A stretch of DNA of 64,000 nt, from NCBI GenBank assembly GCA_002255925.1, contig NKIH01000005.1, forward strand, positions 248,001 through 312,000, written 5' to 3'. The stretch comes from Burkholderiales bacterium PBB6 (GTDB taxonomy: Bacteria; Pseudomonadota; Gammaproteobacteria; Burkholderiales; Burkholderiaceae_C). This document shows, piece after piece, positions 9,008-40,746 of this stretch. A program made the translations under genes and the position numbers. Numbering within the stretch: the first letter of the stretch is position 1; each line of letters begins with the position of its first letter. Under the pieces are notes generated by a model. The model was not told the origin of the DNA and did not search any database. It saw nothing but the letters and a program-made list of their open reading frames with translations.

Positions 9008-9140
9008 GATGAGTGGACTCTTGAGAAGGCCACCCCGATCCGGGAATGAAGGAAACGGACGCAGGGAAGCACTCGCGGCGGCCCGCTTCCCCGCAGGCAT
9101 CCGCACACATGGCCCGACTGCTTGCGCAGTCAGACCCCCT

Positions 9141-9375
9141 GTTGGCCGGTATCCGGGCTGGCGGAGACAACCTGCGCCGTCTTCCCAAAAACCTGCTGAT
9201 CGGCGGTGTGCCGAAGCCTGGGCTTTCAGTGACGATGGGCGCAAGCGGAGGTTGTTTGACGACCTCGTCCGCTTACCGTTGCGGGGGCAGCGCAGGTTGG
9301 GATCGCCCCGTGGGGGTTCACCTTCCTGCTTCCCGTTTACCCCACATAACAACGAAGCATCATGCGGGCACCAAC
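9141..9375 (-). ncRNA. Cobalamin (AdoCbl) riboswitch
   Basis: Read on the minus strand, the leader of btuB contains the conserved cobalamin-aptamer blocks in order: GGTGCC near the 5' end, GGGAAGCAGG, a GCTGCCCCCGCAAC block followed by GGTAAGCGG, GTCACTG (B12-box-like), TTTTTGGGAAGACGG, and a closing AGCCCGGATACCGGCC. GTTGG at the 5' end pairs with CCAAC at the 3' end as P1. Between aptamer and btuB lie a perfect 6-bp hairpin at 9116-9131 and a GGGAAGC/GCTTCCC stem at 9064-9091, candidates for the expression platform. It should repress btuB and the downstream operon when cobalamin is plentiful. Confidence 0.93.
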
Positions 9376-9413
9376 GGCGTGAAGTTTATCACCGCATCGC
9401 TTGCACGAGGCTG

Positions 9414-19202: not shown

Positions 19203-19224
19203 CGCTGCGTCTGTCCGCAGCGTC
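19201..19224 (+). terminator. GC-rich hairpin immediately after the peptidase gene
   Basis: GACGCTGCG and CGCAGCGTC are perfect nine-base complements around a six-base loop, starting inside the stop codon of the peptidase gene. No T-run follows, so it is an atypical terminator or an mRNA 3'-end protector; it also separates the peptidase transcript from the FMN riboswitch that begins two bases later. Confidence 0.45.
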
Positions 19225-19225
19225 A

Positions 19226-19391
<166 letters not shown>

Positions 19392-19494
19392 CCTGGCCCA
19401 CTGGGGGCCGGCCTGCTTCCGTGCGGGTCGGTGCCGCAGCGGCCGGGTGCTTTCGTCGTGCCCTGATTCTGGCCACCTGTCTTTTGGAAGACCC

Positions 19495-33807: not shown

Positions 33808-34156
33808 CGGCGCGTGGTGGCTGGCTCGTTGTGCCGGCGACCTCCAAGTTTTGACAGCCGGGCGTCGGCTCTGACAACTCGGTGCCAGCGTGGAGCGCAT
33901 TCGTTTGCCGAATTCCCTCAACTGAAAGTGGTCGGCAAGGCGCGCAGGTGCGGGGCGTCATGGCCTCTCGCCACAAGCGTGGATCTCGGCGAGAACTTGT
34001 AACAACGCGCTGCTTTTGTCGGAAATTTAATGCTGGTTGAATACGATGTCGAACGGGGGAAATTGTTTATGCGACAGACACTTAGTTGCACTCACCTAGT
34101 CGATTTTAGGGAGCAGCCTGCCTGGTTAGGTGGCGTATGCTGTCTGTGTAGAACAC
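33808..34156. other. Non-coding left flank of the cassette array
   Basis: About 350 bases without a convincing gene. The first half keeps chromosomal base composition; from about 34000 the sequence becomes clearly AT-richer. No piece of an integrase or transposase is recognisable in any frame. GTTAGGT at 34125-34131 and GTTAAGC at 34157-34163 both match the GTTRRRY core used by integron integrases, so the end of this stretch could be a remnant attI or the leftover half of an attC site. Confidence 0.55.
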
Positions 34157-34175
34157 GTTAAGCGTCAAGAGCCTC

Positions 34176-34589
34176 ATGTTCGCAATTGAATCGACCAATT
34201 CGAAGGGCTGGCGTTGGATTTCCGGCCTAGTCGCTACCCGAGCGGAGGCTGAACTTAATGTGTCAGCAGTTCCAGAATCGGGACGACACTTTCACAAGAT
34301 CGTGGACGTGCCGATAAGAGCATTTCCGGTTTTTCTGGTCGAGACCAACGGGTTTGAATTCGGAGGAATTGAGTTCGTGCGCCAACGACTTCGCCAAATC
34401 GAGCCGTCCGATGACCAAGACACCGTTCACTTCAATGTTTACGCCTTCACCTCTCGCTTCCTCCCCAAAGTGCCGGGGCGGGATGAAATGGGTGGAGTTC
34501 TTCACTGGCATGTCACCAACGACACGCTTACGTCACCGCGGGCAGAAGTGTTCGAGGCCGAACTGGCTGACATAGCGAATGACGCTTAA
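34176..34589 (+). CDS. Cassette 1 protein, unknown function
   Basis: 137 residues, soluble-looking, with no signal peptide or membrane helix and no motif I recognise. Mixed beta/alpha composition; an acidic C-terminus (AEVFEAELADIAND). The ATG is 19 bases after the left cassette core site, with no good ribosome site, and the TAA stop lies inside the R'' box of attC1. Base composition is lower in GC than the chromosome. Function cannot be inferred. Confidence 0.8.
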   Translation: MFAIESTNSKGWRWISGLVATRAEAELNVSAVPESGRHFHKIVDVPIRAFPVFLVETNGFEFGGIEFVRQRLRQIEPSDDQDTVHFNVYAFTSRFLPKVPGRDEMGGVLHWHVTNDTLTSPRAEVFEAELADIANDA

Positions 34590-34652
34590 CCTTTCATTGC
34601 AGCGGACCCGCGTCAGCTGCGCTGGCGGGCCCGCTGAATTTAAACGTTAGCC
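34584..34652 (+). repeat. attC1 recombination site
   Basis: R'' GCTTAAC (34584-34590), near-palindromic arms AGCGGACCCGC / GCGGGCCCGCT (one mismatch), R' GTTAGCC (34646-34652). 69 bases. R'' is the complement of GTTAAGC at the left edge of cassette 1, so the site belongs to that cassette. Its short GCGGACCCG arm differs from attC2-4. Confidence 0.88.
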
Positions 34653-34655
34653 GTC

Positions 34656-35063
34656 ATGCAAGCACCGCTACCCGTCGATCGCCTAGTTGAAGAATGGCTC
34701 TTATGGGCGACCTGGCAGCGTGACCCACAGAACCATGGTAAGCACAACGATGACCTGATCGGATTCGATGAGTTCGATTGGGTTGTGCGAAAGCACCCTG
34801 AACACGCATGGCAGTCCATCGTAGCGACCGCGTCGGATCCGAGAGCCGAGCCATTTCTTGGAGTTTTGGCTGCAGGCCCAATGGAAGATCTGCTTGGCTA
34901 TCACGGCCCATCGTTTATCGAACGAGTCGAAGTGGAGGCTCGCCGGAACCCACAGTTCGCGTGGATGCTTGGCGGTGTTTGGCAGTGTCAAATGTCGGAC
35001 GAAATCTGGGCGCGCGTGCAGAAGGTCTGGGATCGTCGCGGGTGGGATGGAATTCCGAAATGA
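34656..35063 (+). CDS. Cassette 2 protein, DUF6869-like
   Basis: 135 residues. Highly acidic/aromatic, with WLLWATWQRDPQNHGKHND near the start, a middle FLGVLAAGPMEDLLGYHGP, and a C-terminal WDRRGWDGIP. The overall pattern recalls small cassette-borne DUF6869 proteins; that match is from memory and weak. No signal peptide. ATG is three bases after the R' box of attC1, leaving almost no room for a ribosome site, so translation may depend on read-through from the cassette upstream or be leader-limited. TGA stop is one base before R'' of attC2. Confidence 0.78.
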   Translation: MQAPLPVDRLVEEWLLWATWQRDPQNHGKHNDDLIGFDEFDWVVRKHPEHAWQSIVATASDPRAEPFLGVLAAGPMEDLLGYHGPSFIERVEVEARRNPQFAWMLGGVWQCQMSDEIWARVQKVWDRRGWDGIPK

Positions 35064-35064
35064 C

Positions 35065-35175
35065 GGCTAACCGGTCGCTCGAGTGGACCGCAACCGGCTG
35101 GCCGCACTCCGCTCAGCAGTTGATCATCGCTTCGTGCGGCCAGCCGGTTTCGTCCCCTCAGCTCCAACGTTAGCC
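35065..35175 (+). repeat. attC2 recombination site (111 bp)
   Basis: R'' GGCTAAC (35065-35071) and R' GTTAGCC (35169-35175) are exact complements. Perfect 16-base arms AACCGGCTGGCCGCAC (35092-35107) and GTGCGGCCAGCCGGTT (35134-35149) form the inner hairpin. Nearly the same sequence recurs at attC3 and attC4. Confidence 0.95.
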
Positions 35176-35180
35176 ATCTG

Positions 35181-35624
35181 ATGCAGGCGTACGAATTCAT
35201 CGACGGTTTTCGAATGGTCATCGAGCGTTTCGGGCAGTGGCCAAGTTTTCACGACGGTGAAGTGCATCGCATCGTCTTGGATAGAACGTCCAATGCTTCG
35301 TGTGGTCGAAGCAGGCCCACGGTCGAGGTTCACGTTCGCGGTTGGATCATGGGGCCGGATGTCGACGCTGAAGGCTTCTACAAGCTGCGGAGCGACTCAG
35401 TTGTCGTATTCCTGTTTGAGGGCATCTTCGACCTAAAGCTTGAGGGCTTCAATCAACAGAACGTTCTCTCATCGCTGAACCTATCGATCGTCGAAGATTC
35501 CGAGGGCAGTGATCCAGCTTTGCATGTCGAGCTAGAGCACTGCTACCTCTTTGCCGGCGAATTCAGTGCTCGCAAAGCAAGGGTGGTTAGTGTGGCACCG
35601 TATGAGGCTCTGTCAGATGGCTAA
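35181..35624 (+). CDS. Cassette 3 protein, Imm50-like
   Basis: 147 residues. The N-terminal FGQWPSFHDGEVHRIVLDR closely follows the WPSFHDAEV motif of the Imm50 family, which was named from toxin-immunity loci, and the following beta-rich part (TVEVHVRGWI, LKLEGFNQQNVL, LHVELEHCYLF) fits. No cognate toxin gene is adjacent. Cytoplasmic. ATG six bases after the R' of attC2; TAA stop falls within R'' GGCTAAC of attC3. Confidence 0.8.
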   Translation: MQAYEFIDGFRMVIERFGQWPSFHDGEVHRIVLDRTSNASCGRSRPTVEVHVRGWIMGPDVDAEGFYKLRSDSVVVFLFEGIFDLKLEGFNQQNVLSSLNLSIVEDSEGSDPALHVELEHCYLFAGEFSARKARVVSVAPYEALSDG

Positions 35625-35729
35625 CCGGTCGCTCGAGTGGACCTCAACCCGCTGGCCGCGCTACGCTCGGCAGCCCATCATCGCTTCGCGCGGCCAGCCG
35701 GTTTCGGCCCCTCAGCTTCAACGTTAGGC
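35619..35729 (+). repeat. attC3 recombination site (111 bp)
   Basis: R'' GGCTAAC (35619-35625) overlaps the cassette 3 stop; R' GTTAGGC (35723-35729). R'' pairs with the GTTAGCC that opens cassette 3, not with its own distal R', as expected when cassettes of different origin are joined. About 90 percent alike to attC2 by eye. Confidence 0.95.
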
Positions 35730-35738
35730 CTCACCCAC

Positions 35739-36188
35739 ATGCATCTGCTCCTGCGACTCGGCGAGAGAGACGGCAAGCCCGACTACGAATCGGTTCATGT
35801 CGAACCTATCGCTGGCAATCGATTTCGAGTTCTCTACTCTCCCGGATTCGCATACGGCGTGGCGGCTGGCGATGAGCTTGAGGTTGATGAGGAAGGCAGA
35901 TACAGAGTTGTCGCCAGAGCTGGAAATCTCTCTGTCCGCCTTCTATGCGGCAGCGGGGTTGCTGACATCGAGCAGAGTTTGACCGAACAGATCGAGAGAA
36001 TTGGCGGACGCCTTGATGGACAAGTTCGTGCCGGTCTCGCATACACGATTCCCCTCAGTGTCGGCCGAGATGTGATCGGGCAGCTTTTCGCCAAAGCCAA
36101 GCAAGAGAATCCTAGTGCCCTCTGGGAGTACGGAAATGTCTACGATGAAGACGGCAAGCTCATGGAGTGGCTGCGCAGTGAGGCCTAA
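35739..36188 (+). CDS. Cassette 4 protein, DUF4265-like
   Basis: 149 residues from the ATG at 35739, ten bases after the R' of attC3 (an upstream in-frame extension to 35637 would translate the attC and is rejected). ESVHVEPIAGNRFRVLYSPG and GVAAGDELEVDEEGRYRVVA resemble the DUF4265 family core; the C-terminus YTIPLSVGRDVIGQLFAKAK completes it. Family function unknown. TAA stop lies inside R'' GCCTAAC of attC4. Confidence 0.82.
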   Translation: MHLLLRLGERDGKPDYESVHVEPIAGNRFRVLYSPGFAYGVAAGDELEVDEEGRYRVVARAGNLSVRLLCGSGVADIEQSLTEQIERIGGRLDGQVRAGLAYTIPLSVGRDVIGQLFAKAKQENPSALWEYGNVYDEDGKLMEWLRSEA

Positions 36189-36293
36189 CAAGTCGCTCGA
36201 GTGGACCGCAACCGGCTGGCCGCATTCCGCTCAGCGGTCAATCATCACTCCGTGCGGCCAGCCGGTTCCGGCCCCTCAGCTCCAACGTTAGGC
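36183..36293 (+). repeat. attC4 recombination site (111 bp)
   Basis: R'' GCCTAAC (36183-36189) and R' GTTAGGC (36287-36293) are exact complements, and R'' also complements the opening core of cassette 4. The inner arms AACCGGCTGGCCGCA / TGCGGCCAGCCGGTT are those of attC2. Confidence 0.95.
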
Positions 36294-36333
36294 CTCCGAG
36301 TTCAGACCTCTCTTACCCTCACTGCTGAGATTC

Positions 36334-36816
36334 ATGCCCACCAACTCCCTTGATGACCACGCCGTCCAGTATATGAATGCTGCTCGCGAAGGTCTCGCTG
36401 TGCAAACGTCGGCACATACCGCCACTTGGCACTTTGGAGAAGAGCTAACTTGGGCCGCCAATCTGGACACGGGAACCATAGTCTTCTCGTTCTCGGACGG
36501 AGTCACCGCCCCCGCTCCAATCCAAGTCGTCGGCAGCTACAACACAGCCGACGGCACGTTCCTTTGGGGGTGGGATCACCCATCAGTCCCTCAGGATCTC
36601 AGGAAGCATGCAGTCCTTGCAAGACAATGGGGTGAGAAGCATAGGGTACAAGCCTTCACTTCTCGCAAGGTTCAATGCACAGAAGACGACGCTTGGGGTT
36701 TTGCAGCAACAACGAACCGCTTGGCGCAAGCAAACGGTGTCTACCGGGGGCCAAGCGATACTGCGCGGTTCTTCATGACACTGGGCGAAATCACGCTTGC
36801 GCGCGCGGAGGCCTAA
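36334..36816 (+). CDS. Cassette 5 protein, DUF6882-like
   Basis: 160 residues, soluble. TWHFGEELTWAANLDTGTIVFSF, IQVVGSYNTADGTFLWGWDHPSVPQ, and a C-terminal GVYRGPSDTARFFMTLGEI follow the pattern of DUF6882 proteins (a W-x-W beta core followed by helices). Function of that family is unknown. ATG lies 41 bases after R' of attC4, the longest 5' space in the array. The TAA stop is part of the altered R'' of attC5. Confidence 0.82.
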   Translation: MPTNSLDDHAVQYMNAAREGLAVQTSAHTATWHFGEELTWAANLDTGTIVFSFSDGVTAPAPIQVVGSYNTADGTFLWGWDHPSVPQDLRKHAVLARQWGEKHRVQAFTSRKVQCTEDDAWGFAATTNRLAQANGVYRGPSDTARFFMTLGEITLARAEA

Positions 36817-36871
36817 ACCCTTCCTTCAAGCGGACCCGTCTACGGCTGTCTGCTTACGCCAAACGTTTGGC
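36811..36871 (+). repeat. attC5 recombination site, short and degenerate
   Basis: About 61 bases. The R'' position reads GCCTAAAC, one A longer than the expected GCCTAAC, and R' reads GTTTGGC, with T at the fourth base instead of a purine. Arms AAGCGGAC / GTCTGCTT have one mismatch. The opening CTTCCTTCAAGCGGAC is shared with the truncated attC6. Confidence 0.78.
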
Positions 36872-36892
36872 CTCACCAAGAACCTCAATCCC

Positions 36893-37363
36893 ATGACGCA
36901 CCGTTCTTATTCTTGTGCAAGTGCAATTTTCACTTTGCTTTTCGCACCACTGGCTTTCGGTCAGAACGCCGGACAGTTACCCAGCGGCAATTACCGACTT
37001 GAAGGCGAGTGCTCGAGAACCTTGTACCTTGGCGCAGAAGTCGCGCCAGAGTGTGATCATTTCTTGGGCATCAAAGTCGATGTCTCCGACAAGCCAATGT
37101 TCATCTTTCCCCTCAAAAATGGCGCTCGAGCGTGGTTCTTCGTAGCGTCACAACAAGAATCATCGAGCAAGGACCGTACCGTCTATGCAGTTGAAAAACT
37201 GTACGACCAAGCATTGAATGTCGAATTCTCATACCCGGCTGGAGAGTGCGAGGTCAACACAGGACCAATCGTGCGGTGCACCGTGTGGAAGGATCCAGAG
37301 CGAACCGTGAAAGCTCGGGAACTCGTTTTCTCGGGCTCTGGAAATTGGGCACGTGCGAAATGA
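36893..37363 (+). CDS. Cassette 6 secreted protein, unknown function
   Basis: 156 residues with a classical signal peptide (SCASAIFTLLFAPLAFGQ, cleavage probably after FG-Q), so the mature ~133 residues are periplasmic or surface. Two Cys pairs (GECSRTL, APECDHF; GECEVNTG, VRCTVW) may form disulphides. No known domain seen. ATG at 36893 is 22 bases after R' of attC5; an upstream in-frame start at 36797 would read through the attC. Stop is 10 bases before R'' of the cut attC6. Confidence 0.78.
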   Translation: MTHRSYSCASAIFTLLFAPLAFGQNAGQLPSGNYRLEGECSRTLYLGAEVAPECDHFLGIKVDVSDKPMFIFPLKNGARAWFFVASQQESSSKDRTVYAVEKLYDQALNVEFSYPAGECEVNTGPIVRCTVWKDPERTVKARELVFSGSGNWARAK

Positions 37364-37373
37364 AGCGAATGAG

Positions 37374-37398
37374 GCCTAACCCTTCCTTCAAGCGGACT
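37374..37398 (+). repeat. attC6, truncated
   Basis: Begins with R'' GCCTAAC (37374-37380) and CCTTCCTTCAAGCGGACT, the left arm found in attC5, then stops matching. No right arm or R' follows. The array therefore ends in a broken site, and the sequence to 37576 (about 180 bases) contains no gene or site I can name. Confidence 0.8.
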
Positions 37399-37576
37399 GG
37401 GAGCTTGTTTTAGTTTTGTGGACACTCCGACCTAACCGAAAAGACTAGCCCACCTGAACAACCAAGGCTGCCAAGCCACTCGCCAAAACGCCACCGACAA
37501 GCTCGCCCAATCGCCGCATCAAGTCATCAACCCACGGGCAAGGGCTTATTGAAACCCGGTTGGCAACAGCCACCGC

Positions 37577-38426: not shown

Positions 38427-39158
38427 TCAGATCGACCGCTGGTTCACCCGCTTCGACAAGGCCTCGGCGCTTTCCTTGCGCTCGCTGTATCGGTCGACCA
38501 GCACCTCACCCAGGTCACGCGTCAGCAGCGTGAACTTGACCAGCTCTTCCATCACGTCCACCACCCGGTCATAGAACGCAGATGGCTTCATGCGCCCGTC
38601 GTCCGTGAACTCGGTGAAGGCCTTGGCCACCGACGACTGGTTGGGAATCGTCAGCATTCGCATCCAGCGGCCAAGAATGCGCATCTGGTTGACCGCGTTG
38701 AACGACTGCGAGCCGCCGCACACCTGCATTACTGCCAGCGTCTTGCCCTGCGTGGGGCGCACGGCCCCCGACGACAGCGGAATCCAGTCGATCTGCGCTT
38801 TCATCACGCCGGTCATGGCGCCGTGGCGCTCGGGCGAGCACCAGACCATACCTTCTGACCACGCCGCCAAGGCACGAAGCTCCAGCACCTTGGGGTGATC
38901 ATCCGGTGCGCCGTCAGGCAGCGGCAAGCCGGCCGGATCGAAGATGCGCACCTCGCAACCCATCGCCTCCAGCAGACGGGCCGCCTCGAAGGTCAGCAGA
39001 CGGCTGTACGAGCGCTCACGCAGTGAGCCATACAGCATCAGGATGCGCGGCGCGTGCGTGGAGGGTTGTGGCAGCGCCAGTTGCTGCTGCTCGGGTACCT
39101 TGAACAAGGTAGCCTCAAGCGCTGGGAATGTGGCGTCGGGGAACAGGGGTTCAGTCAC
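38427..39158 (-). CDS. arsH: ArsH, NADPH-dependent FMN reductase / organoarsenical oxidase
   Basis: 243-residue flavodoxin-like enzyme. The FMN-phosphate loop [13 protein letters not shown], the [23 protein letters not shown] stretch and [21 protein letters not shown] are diagnostic for ArsH, which oxidises trivalent methylarsenicals and also reduces quinones or azo dyes with NADPH. Start is GTG at 39158; no upstream ATG. It is the last gene of the minus-strand arsR-arsC-aqpS-arsH cluster, 23 bases after the aqpS stop. Confidence 0.93.
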
Positions 39159-39181
39159 TCGAGGAGCTTTCGTTCAATCAA

Positions 39182-39838
39182 TCAAGACACGCGGGCAGAC
39201 AACACGCGGTGCACCCACACGGCCACCGCCGCACCCAGCAGTTGCGCCACCACGAAGGCCGGTGCGCTGGCGGGCGCGATGCCGGCAAAGCTGTCGCTGA
39301 ACATGCGGCCGAACACCGCCGCCGGGTTGGCGAACGAGGTGGACGCCGTGAACCAGTAGGCCGCGCCGATGTAGGCCGCCACCATGGCCGAAGCACGCCC
39401 AGCCGGCGCACGCAGGATGACCAGCAGCAAACCGAACGTGGCCACGCCCTCGGCCAGCCACTGGCCGTGGCCGGTGCGCAGCTTGGATGACATCTGGATG
39501 ATGGTCATGTCGAACATGCCGTGGGCCAGCCACGCGCCCAGCATGGCGCCCAGCAACTGCGCCACCACATAAGCAGGCAGCAAGCCGCGCGGCAACTCGC
39601 CCCGGAACGCCATGACCAGCGACACCGCCGGGTTGAAATGCGCGCCGCTGATCGGGCCGAACACCTCGATCAGGATGTACAGCCCGCCCACGGTGGCCAG
39701 CGTGTTGGCCAGCAGGGCCACCGCCACATTGCCGCCCGCCAGCCGCTCAGCCATCACGCCCGAGCCGATGACGATGGCCAGCAACAAGGCCGTGCCCAAC
39801 AGTTCGGCGAACAACTTCTGCCGCGCGCTGCAAGCCAT
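39182..39838 (-). CDS. aqpS: Aquaglyceroporin AqpS-like, arsenite channel
   Basis: 218 residues, MIP family, six helices and two half-helices with the pore motifs HFNPAVS and FANPAAV. In Sinorhizobium meliloti an aquaglyceroporin (AqpS) replaces ArsB and lets As(III) leave down its gradient after ArsC reduces As(V). The same role is likely since the gene lies between an arsC and arsH and no arsB or acr3 is in the window. ATG at 39838 has GAGG eight bases upstream; the frame is open seven codons more but enters arsC. Confidence 0.92.
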   Translation of the reverse strand: MACSARQKLFAELLGTALLLAIVIGSGVMAERLAGGNVAVALLANTLATVGGLYILIEVFGPISGAHFNPAVSLVMAFRGELPRGLLPAYVVAQLLGAMLGAWLAHGMFDMTIIQMSSKLRTGHGQWLAEGVATFGLLLVILRAPAGRASAMVAAYIGAAYWFTASTSFANPAAVFGRMFSDSFAGIAPASAPAFVVAQLLGAAVAVWVHRVLSARVS

Positions 39839-39848
39839 GGCCGACACC

Positions 39849-40352
39849 TCAGGAAGCACCGATGGTGTTCAGCGCAGCCAGCAGCTCGGCGCGGCTCATC
39901 GAGCTCAGCGGCAGCTGCAGCAGCTGCAACATGCGATAGCCGATGGCCTGGCGCGTCAGCTCGAACGCGCGGCGCTTGCCTTCGTCACCGCCTTCGGCGT
40001 TGGACGGATCGGGGTAGCCCCAGTGCACCTTCACCGGTTGGCCCTGGCCGCCAAAAAACACCGGGCACTGCTCGGCCGCGGCGCTGTCGCACACCGTGAT
40101 CACGATGGACAGCGGCGGCGCATCGGGCGTGGTGAATTCGTCCCAGCTCTTGCTGCGGTACTCGGCCACGTTCACCCCGGCGTTGGTCAGGGCCTCCAGG
40201 GCGAAAGGGTTGAGCCGGCCGCTGGGTGCGCTGCCAGCACTGAAGGCGCGCACGTCCTGGCCCTGCTGCCGGGCGAGGTGGTTGAGCATGCCTTCGCTGA
40301 GCACGCTGCGGGCAGAGTTGTGGGTGCAGAGGATGAGGACGTTGGTGGTCAT
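39849..40352 (-). CDS. arsC: Arsenate reductase, low-molecular-weight phosphatase type
   Basis: 167 residues. Phosphatase-type ArsC with P-loop CTHNSARS (C9-R15) and SAGSAPSGRLNPFA, SWDEF, TVCDSAAAEQCP, in which the Cys pair around residue 80-90 forms the disulphide relay resolved by thioredoxin or a mycothiol/glutaredoxin partner. ATG at 40352 is the first codon of the conserved start TTNVLILCTHNSARS; the frame extends to 40466 but would overlap arsR. It differs in fold from the ArsC at 14250. Confidence 0.93.
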   Translation of the reverse strand: MTTNVLILCTHNSARSVLSEGMLNHLARQQGQDVRAFSAGSAPSGRLNPFALEALTNAGVNVAEYRSKSWDEFTTPDAPPLSIVITVCDSAAAEQCPVFFGGQGQPVKVHWGYPDPSNAEGGDEGKRRAFELTRQAIGYRMLQLLQLPLSSMSRAELLAALNTIGAS

Positions 40353-40398
40353 GGTGTGCGGGTTGAGAGGCTGGGGAGCCAATGGCGCTGGTCTGCGC

Positions 40399-40746
40399 TC
40401 AGCAGCCGCAGGCGCTGGAGGTTGTGGAAGCAGTGGCTGATGCGTTCGCGGGCATGCACGCCTCACCCTCGCAGCAGTTCTCGGTCAGGAAGGCCAGCAA
40501 CTCGTGCATGTGCTCGAACGCCGCGCGGTACACCACATTGCGGCTCACCCGCTCCTGGCTCACCAGGCCGGCGTGGGTCAATTCCTTCAGGTGGAACGAC
40601 AAGGTGGCTGCGGGCAGCGCCAGCGCTTCGGCCAATGCCCCGGGCGTCAGGCCCTGCGGCCCGGCCACCACCAGCAGGCGAAACACCTTCAGACGGTGGG
40701 TTTGCGCCAAGGCGGCGAGCGAACGAACGACGTGCTTTTCTTCCAT
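40399..40746 (-). CDS. arsR: ArsR-family metalloregulatory repressor
   Basis: 115 residues with a small winged helix (GLTPGALAEALALPAATLSFHLKELTHAGLV). The expected As(III)-binding cysteines are not in the DNA-binding helix (which reads SFHLKEL) but at the C-terminus: C91, C92, C97, then a second pair C113/C115. Such C-terminal thiol sets are known in As(III)-responding ArsR proteins. It is first in the ars cluster and should repress it until As(III) binds. Confidence 0.92.
   Translation of the reverse strand: MEEKHVVRSLAALAQTHRLKVFRLLVVAGPQGLTPGALAEALALPAATLSFHLKELTHAGLVSQERVSRNVVYRAAFEHMHELLAFLTENCCEGEACMPANASATASTTSSACGC

Follow-up and report, generated by a model that had tools for sequence, protein, structure and literature searches.

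An attI site heads a cassette array that lacks an integrase gene

What is an array of integron cassettes doing in a chromosome with no integrase gene beside it? Six such cassettes occupy positions 34157–37398 of a 64,000-nucleotide stretch (the window; positions 248,001 to 312,000 of contig NKIH01000005.1) of the genome of Burkholderiales bacterium PBB6, and a first-pass annotation made from the sequence alone had classed them as a cluster of attC sites lacking an integron integrase (CALIN). We found that the array is preceded by an integron recombination site, attI, with its leader (33991–34159, plus strand; 106 bits with the attI model R3 described below), and that the single full integrase gene of the genome (intI) shares its contig at a distance of 279 kb. 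The locus is likely to be a second platform, attI plus six cassettes, of a system with several attI sites, in which the local intI was deleted and the distant IntI is the probable integrase.

A DNA search with the 169-nt leader from the window found four copies in the genome, the window copy included. The window attI is 83% identical to the copy at C28:1163-1331 (contig C28), 80% to the copy beside intI (C26:1827-1996) and 76% to that at C20:166838-167007, and a partial fifth copy lies at C26:110 kb. Similarity among the copies stops at the cassette core GTT; the first such core in the window is at 34157, exactly where the annotation had placed the left boundary. The region upstream of the full intI aligns with the bases that precede the window array, and the copies on C28 and C20 are also followed directly by cassettes and adjoin no intI. 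The genome holds four full attI copies against one full intI, and three attI-headed arrays without intI.

TIGR02249 matched the whole genome once above its cut-off (C26:2026-3087; 471 bits, an open frame with no internal stops). This sole match, an intI elsewhere of the kind that the annotation had suggested seeking, lies outside the window, beside an attI of the same family. Six further TIGR02249 matches fall below the cut-off, and 14 of 14 control genomes give such matches too. No intI relic was found by tblastn at E 1 in the 2 kb upstream of the window attI. The resident IntI is about 70% identical to IntI1-like database matches, which we take to be IntI1.

By the IntegronFinder definition, an attC cluster with no nearby intI, the CALIN label applies: five complete attC sites and one half stand where at least two are required, and the nearest intI above cut-off is 279 kb off. 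The label overlooks the attI at 33991–34159, which adjoins the cassettes as in a complete integron; it is the intI next to attI that is missing at this locus. CALIN is formally right yet misleading for what is an attI-headed integron without integrase, one of several in the genome and many in the family.

attI sites outnumber integrase genes across the family

An attI model built from the four copies of the source genome (R1) found copies in 7 of 16 genomes of the genus, numbering 5, 3, 3, 2, 2, 1 and 1, and intI above the curated cut-off was present in 14 of the 16. None of the R1 copies in G002, G010 and G014 adjoins intI; for G002, a generic model built from 13 intI-linked attIs only (R3) adds a further attI that does. 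Across the family, R3 gave 170 matches in 82 of 299 genomes, and TIGR02249 at E 1e-55 gave matches in 138 of the same 299. attI matches outnumber intI matches in 57 of the 82 attI-carrying genomes. Among the 150 attI matches listed, 47 lie within 1.5 kb of one of 64 intI places, taken from genomes with listed attI matches, and 103 do not; again among the matches listed, at least one intI-free copy occurs in 59 genomes, and copies of the two kinds coexist in 29. The figure of 103 is an upper one, because both lists are partial, weaker intI fragments are absent and some matches are at contig ends (for 18 of the 103, no more than 1.3 kb separates the start from the low end of the contig, the end that was checked). 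R3 gave no match on 1.85 Mb of reversed sequence against 198 on the forward sequence (overlapping loci counted repeatedly), and among 229 genomes sampled from the class, the only 2 that matched belong to this family. The same imbalance is seen in one-contig genomes: G271 has four attI and one intI, G163 four attI and two intI.

Forty attI loci were fetched in two sets of 20, the first mainly out of finished genomes, the second selected for being intI-free. In the first set, tblastn found full intI at L198, L202 and L204, 268 aa of it at L210 and 94 aa at L217. We took 35 loci as intI-free, 15 from the first set and all 20 of the second (L218 included), and searched them with R2, an attC covariance model trained on 12 attCs, among them five from the window. 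An attC lies downstream on the attI strand in 29 of the 35 loci (29 of 36 with L217 added, 28 of 34 with L218 dropped), and 66 of 68 attC matches are downstream on that strand, the remaining two mirroring counted sites. R2 found no downstream attC at L209, L220, L222, L224, L226 and L230; since the model was trained on attCs of the source genome, these six may hold other attC types. An Rfam search of L055, L068 and L091 returned nothing.

Integrase relics and decay of the intI control region

Several platforms retain remnants of intI. The second platform of G009 (L075) carries 158 aa of N-terminal intI; a deletion follows, after which come the final ~20 nt of the gene and ~90 nt of the sequence behind it. 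The 158-aa relic is identical to the first intI copy of that genome, itself split over two frames; this second platform is caught during intI loss. An 87-aa relic lies beside the attI of L076, and 6 of the 20 loci in the second set have small relics, three N-terminal (L218, 97 aa; L225, 36 aa; L236, 38 aa) and three C-terminal (L227, 25 aa; L228, 29 aa; L234, 51 aa).

We compared decay in 47 intI-less and 15 intI-linked copies, leaving out the half copy at C26:110 kb, by counting violations in columns with a conservation of 90% or more across the intI-linked copies. The attI region was defined as the last 45 nt plus the core, and the leader as the intI control region. In intI-less copies violations reach 25.6% in the leader, 30% within the LexA box and 9.9% in attI, compared with 2.9%, 0.8% and 2.9%, respectively, in intI-linked copies, figures that are flattered because the linked set defines the conserved columns. 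Of the 47 intI-less copies, 41 have a worse leader than attI and 3 show the reverse (p 8e-9 per copy, p 3e-5 over 21 genomes; indicative values only, as the copies are related to each other). The result holds with gaps excluded or the threshold lowered to 85%, and a first test on 30 hand-chosen copies, mostly stronger matches, had given 22.8% for the leader and 6.7% for attI. Decay of this region-specific kind indicates that the intI control region erodes after intI loss and the recombination site less so.

The leader of the window copy carries a decayed LexA-like box (34033–34048, minus strand), apparently from the promoter of the lost intI, that reads CTGGTTGAATACGATG where the intI-linked copy of the same genome has CTGGATGAATATACAG; the LexA-like motif CTGT-N8-ACAG is present in 8 of 14 aligned intI-linked copies. 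The LexA consensus, and the loss of LexA control that accompanies integrase inactivation, are described in the available part of PMC3108266. Among the four full attI copies of the genome, 7 of the last 41 columns are variable against 54 of the 127 before them (p 0.003). Possible direct repeats 20 nt apart in the window attI (34106–34136, plus strand; TTAGGGAGCAG and TTAGGTGGCGT, 7/11 identical) do not by themselves exceed shuffles. In a set of 44 attIs, the best direct repeat scores 8.6/11 against 6.6/11 in shuffles, and in that test the best pair of the window copy is a different one, 8/11 at 22 nt.

Different cassettes at platforms without intI

Cassettes can be compared where two species of one genus share a platform, at L215 (G090) and L228 (G194). 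The left flanks are 87% identical over 2447 bp and the right flanks 90% over 3559 bp. The left-flank match takes in the stretch that in L228 encodes the 29-aa C-terminal relic of intI and that has decayed in L215 (identity at 74 of 87 nt). The arrays between attI and the right flank (1329 and 1706 bp) were compared with each other, and neither blastn at E 1 nor tblastx below E 0.05 gave a match. A full intI exists at another place in G194; in G090 none was found at E 1e-55. Read from these alignments, intI was gone before the species split and the cassettes changed later. In G143, which has no intI match, the attIs of L206 and L207 (separated by ~148 kb, assuming a circular record) have ~440 bp of upstream sequence that are 99.5% identical and are followed by different first cassettes; this is a recent duplication of an intI-less platform.

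Other candidate pairs were rejected. L070/L072 and L071/L073 (G001/G002) resembled cassette turnover at common intI-less attIs but were set aside, as the attI core in G002 adjoins what matches the end of an IS91-type element, and the leader of L199/L212 (75% flank) is poorly alignable. L198–L200 share a 1.8-kb segment at 99.7–100% identity, which is probably an inserted element. A 42% relative of the cassette 2 protein of the window is encoded in an intI-linked array of G163.

Is the attI still in use?

In the window, then, attI is present, intI is absent and the cassettes start exactly at the attI core; across the family, the leaders of such loci have decayed more than their attIs. The locus would once have been a complete integron that lost intI by deletion, and the distant IntI, which lies beside an attI of the same family, may still insert or excise cassettes here; the window attI is probably still served in trans. 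The annotation had proposed descent from an integron that lost its platform: loss of the integrase fits, but the platform itself is retained as attI and leader. A broader proposal, which we find plausible and put forward tentatively, is that integrons of this family are commonly distributed. One SOS-controlled integrase would serve several attI platforms in trans, platforms that have shed intI would keep a working attI under selection, and cassette storage and expression would be spread over the chromosome.

Several observations weigh against continued use. The attI is kept equally well in genomes without any intI found (8.0% violations, 16 copies) and with one (9.0%, 31 copies; p 0.78), as it was in the first test (p 0.32), so its conservation does not have to reflect present service in trans. 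It is also more changed in intI-less than in intI-linked copies, and differences between the window and C28 copies are not depleted in conserved columns (8/48 versus 25/125, p 0.67). Cassette change is seen in one pair and would also fit differential loss from a longer ancestral array; the L215 relic in that pair was missed by tblastn at E 1e-3 and is visible only through its alignment with L228. For the window itself, the cassettes share only attC DNA with the other fetched loci, and an empty-site search made with the right neighbour (an FAA hydrolase gene) gave no match above 53% identity in the genus.

Some of these points would be expected if recombination had stopped once intI was lost, leaving an attI that is merely uneroded and cassettes that are fixed, some of them kept for their own function. 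Equal retention of attI in genomes without intI fits such a relic, as do the greater overall change in intI-less copies, attI included, and the broken right attC of the window. A relic would not be expected to decay by region (25.6% in the leader and 30% in the LexA box against 9.9% in attI, regions that are alike in intI-linked copies) or to carry unrelated cassettes at one common intI-deleted platform, as at L215/L228, and we think this account unlikely.

The attI might also be kept as the holder of the cassette promoter (Pc) and not through recombination, which would likewise account for its conservation in genomes without intI. The retained part, however, consists of the final 45 nt and the core, and direct repeats occur across the set, a layout that by analogy resembles the IntI-binding sites of attI1 (DR1 and DR2, as given in the available part of PMC9892861). 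A scan of the window leader for sigma-70-like sequences found none on the plus strand and one on the minus strand, although a simple consensus scan of this kind can miss promoters. We regard retention for Pc as rather improbable.

Off-target insertion by the distant IntI at a chromosomal site other than attI is one cited route to a CALIN (in the available part of PMC8618304) and a full IntI does exist in the genome, but what stands before the array is an entire attI leader and not a GTT that arose by chance; at this locus the route is very improbable, and the annotation's idea that the array was seeded by an integron elsewhere falls with it. We give equally little credence to an assembly artefact that misplaced an array belonging to the intI locus: the starts of contigs C26 and C28 both fall within an insertion sequence in attC, which shows that repeats of this kind do interrupt the assembly, but the window array lies away from the ends of its 407-kb contig, its attI and the intI-linked one are 20% different, and the one-contig genomes G271 and G163 show the same pattern.

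Relation to known systems

The window array shares with CALINs, as described in the available parts of PMC9024848 and PMC8618304, attC cassettes without an adjacent intI, and differs from them in being headed by a recognizable attI of the resident integron family. A precedent is a Shewanella prophage, in which an intI-less array with its own attI lies beside a complete integron (PMC9892861, available part). That case concerns one prophage and a 28-nt attI, whereas here several chromosomal loci per genome are involved, family-wide, and they show a leader, relics of intI and decay that differs by region. It was the only precedent found; literature searches for several or second attIs in integrons, in which subscription journals were mostly uncovered, gave no related paper. 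In Xanthomonas, intI is often inactivated and further CALINs lie away from it; in the available part of PMC12444791 CALINs are described as mobilizable in trans by a functional IntI, and no attI is reported at the remote CALINs, unlike the window array. Class 1 integrons (IntI1–attI1) resemble the system in the ~70% identity of IntI and in the GTTRRRY core. The window array is not one of them, with no intI1 or other intI adjoining it; its cassettes have no resistance assignment and its attI occurs at several chromosomal loci.

If many CALINs carry their own attI, they would be landing sites outside the scope of standard software; counts of possible integration sites in a genome would be too low, and the cost of an integrase would be separable from the benefit of several arrays. 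Should integrons prove to be distributed, many so-called CALINs would be working satellites. Whether CALINs are dead or served in trans becomes directly testable at named loci.

Structure of the array and its cassettes

The six-cassette array reported by the annotation is real: six plus-strand open reading frames (ORFs) alternate with attC sites. An attC pattern search of the whole genome found just one site, and we used the covariance model R2 instead. As the annotation had recommended such a check, we note that R2 gives five significant sites in the window (53.6–70 bits, E 6e-11 to 4e-15) and, with the E limit at 0.1, only one mirror-strand match beyond them. On the plus strand, cassette 1 (34157–34645; ORF 34176–34589, 137 aa) is followed by attC1 (34578–34658, 65.0 bits), cassette 2 (34646–35168; ORF 34656–35063) by attC2 (35059–35181, 70 bits), cassette 3 (35169–35722; ORF 35181–35624) by attC3 (35613–35735, 65.7 bits), cassette 4 (35723–36286; ORF 35739–36188) by attC4 (36177–36299, 69.6 bits) and cassette 5 (36287–36864; ORF 36334–36816) by attC5 (36806–36877, 53.6 bits). 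Cassette 6 (36865–37398; ORF 36893–37363) has the R''-L'' half of an attC only. Bottom-strand folds are far better than those of shuffles for attC1 (z -6.2), attC2 (z -7.2) and attC4 (z -8.5) and less so for attC3 (z -2.6) and attC5 (z -1.2); the broken sixth site folds no better than shuffles (z +0.75).

In cassettes 1–5 the 3' end is the exact reverse complement of the cassette's own 5' end over 11, 12, 13, 12 and 11 nt, respectively, which is the signature of integrated cassettes. Cross-pairings between cassettes span 3–11 nt, reaching 11 once (cassette 4 with the end of cassette 6). Cassettes 1–5 thus have the R''-complementary 5' end, the 3' attC and the ORF of a gene cassette; cassette 6 has a half attC and a complement of just 7 nt with its own end (8 nt with that of cassette 4).

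The annotation had called the content unassigned, and this stands in part. Four of the six proteins match Pfam above cut-off: DUF6869 (cassette 2, 126 bits), weakly Imm50 (cassette 3, 31.1 bits against a cut-off of 27.1), DUF4265 (cassette 4, 54 bits) and DUF6882 (cassette 5, 109.6 bits). Three of these four are families of unknown function, and the proteins of cassettes 1 and 6 match no family above cut-off in Pfam, NCBIfam or PADLOC. At E 1 PADLOC matched none of the six, hence no known defence family. The N-terminus of the cassette 6 protein resembles a signal peptide by eye; its structure model (mean pLDDT 38) is too poor for use. The one Imm50 match is the sole support for reading the cassettes as immunity genes, and a literature search for integron cassettes with polymorphic-toxin immunity found none. 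A ~370-bp cassette is repeated within and between the intI-linked and C20 arrays at 87–98% identity (L008 ~660–1830, L022 7008–8080).

Insertion elements and neighbouring genes

The right site is broken, as annotated: the second half of attC6 is replaced by a 42-nt insertion-sequence end (37399–37440, plus strand), the remainder of the element being gone. Six more copies of this end, 83–100% identical, are found elsewhere in the genome. The element at C26:56-171 has an end 100% identical to the 42 nt of the window, at the matching position of another attC; the copies outside the window are at L008 130–172, L021 130–172, L024 6590/9042, L023 5405 and L025 2723. Three of the copies run into a transposase start and four diverge past the end. 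In the degenerate L024 copy (C20:406589) the frame starts with HTH_Tnp_1 (38.7 bits), presumably as in orfA of IS3-type elements. By eye, all seven ends sit directly behind an apparent attC R''-L'' half, which suggests that the element targets attC.

An IS91-type element ends exactly at the attI core, between GTT and GAAC, of two intI-less attIs of G002 (L072 1–122, L073 1–117; also L055 496–613 and L068 9955–12151). The end at the G002 attI core is 86% identical to L068 9955–10073, and L068 frames behind it match Phage_integrase (a tyrosine recombinase) and Y2_Tnp/Zn_Tnp_IS91.

Elsewhere in the window, four consecutive minus-strand genes (38427–40746) match FMN_red, MIP (aquaporin-like), LMWPc and HTH_20 and look like an arsenic-resistance operon, presumably arsH, aqpS, arsC and arsR. 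The window also contains an FMN riboswitch (19224–19392, plus strand; 101 bits) and a cobalamin riboswitch (9127–9390, minus strand; 83 bits).

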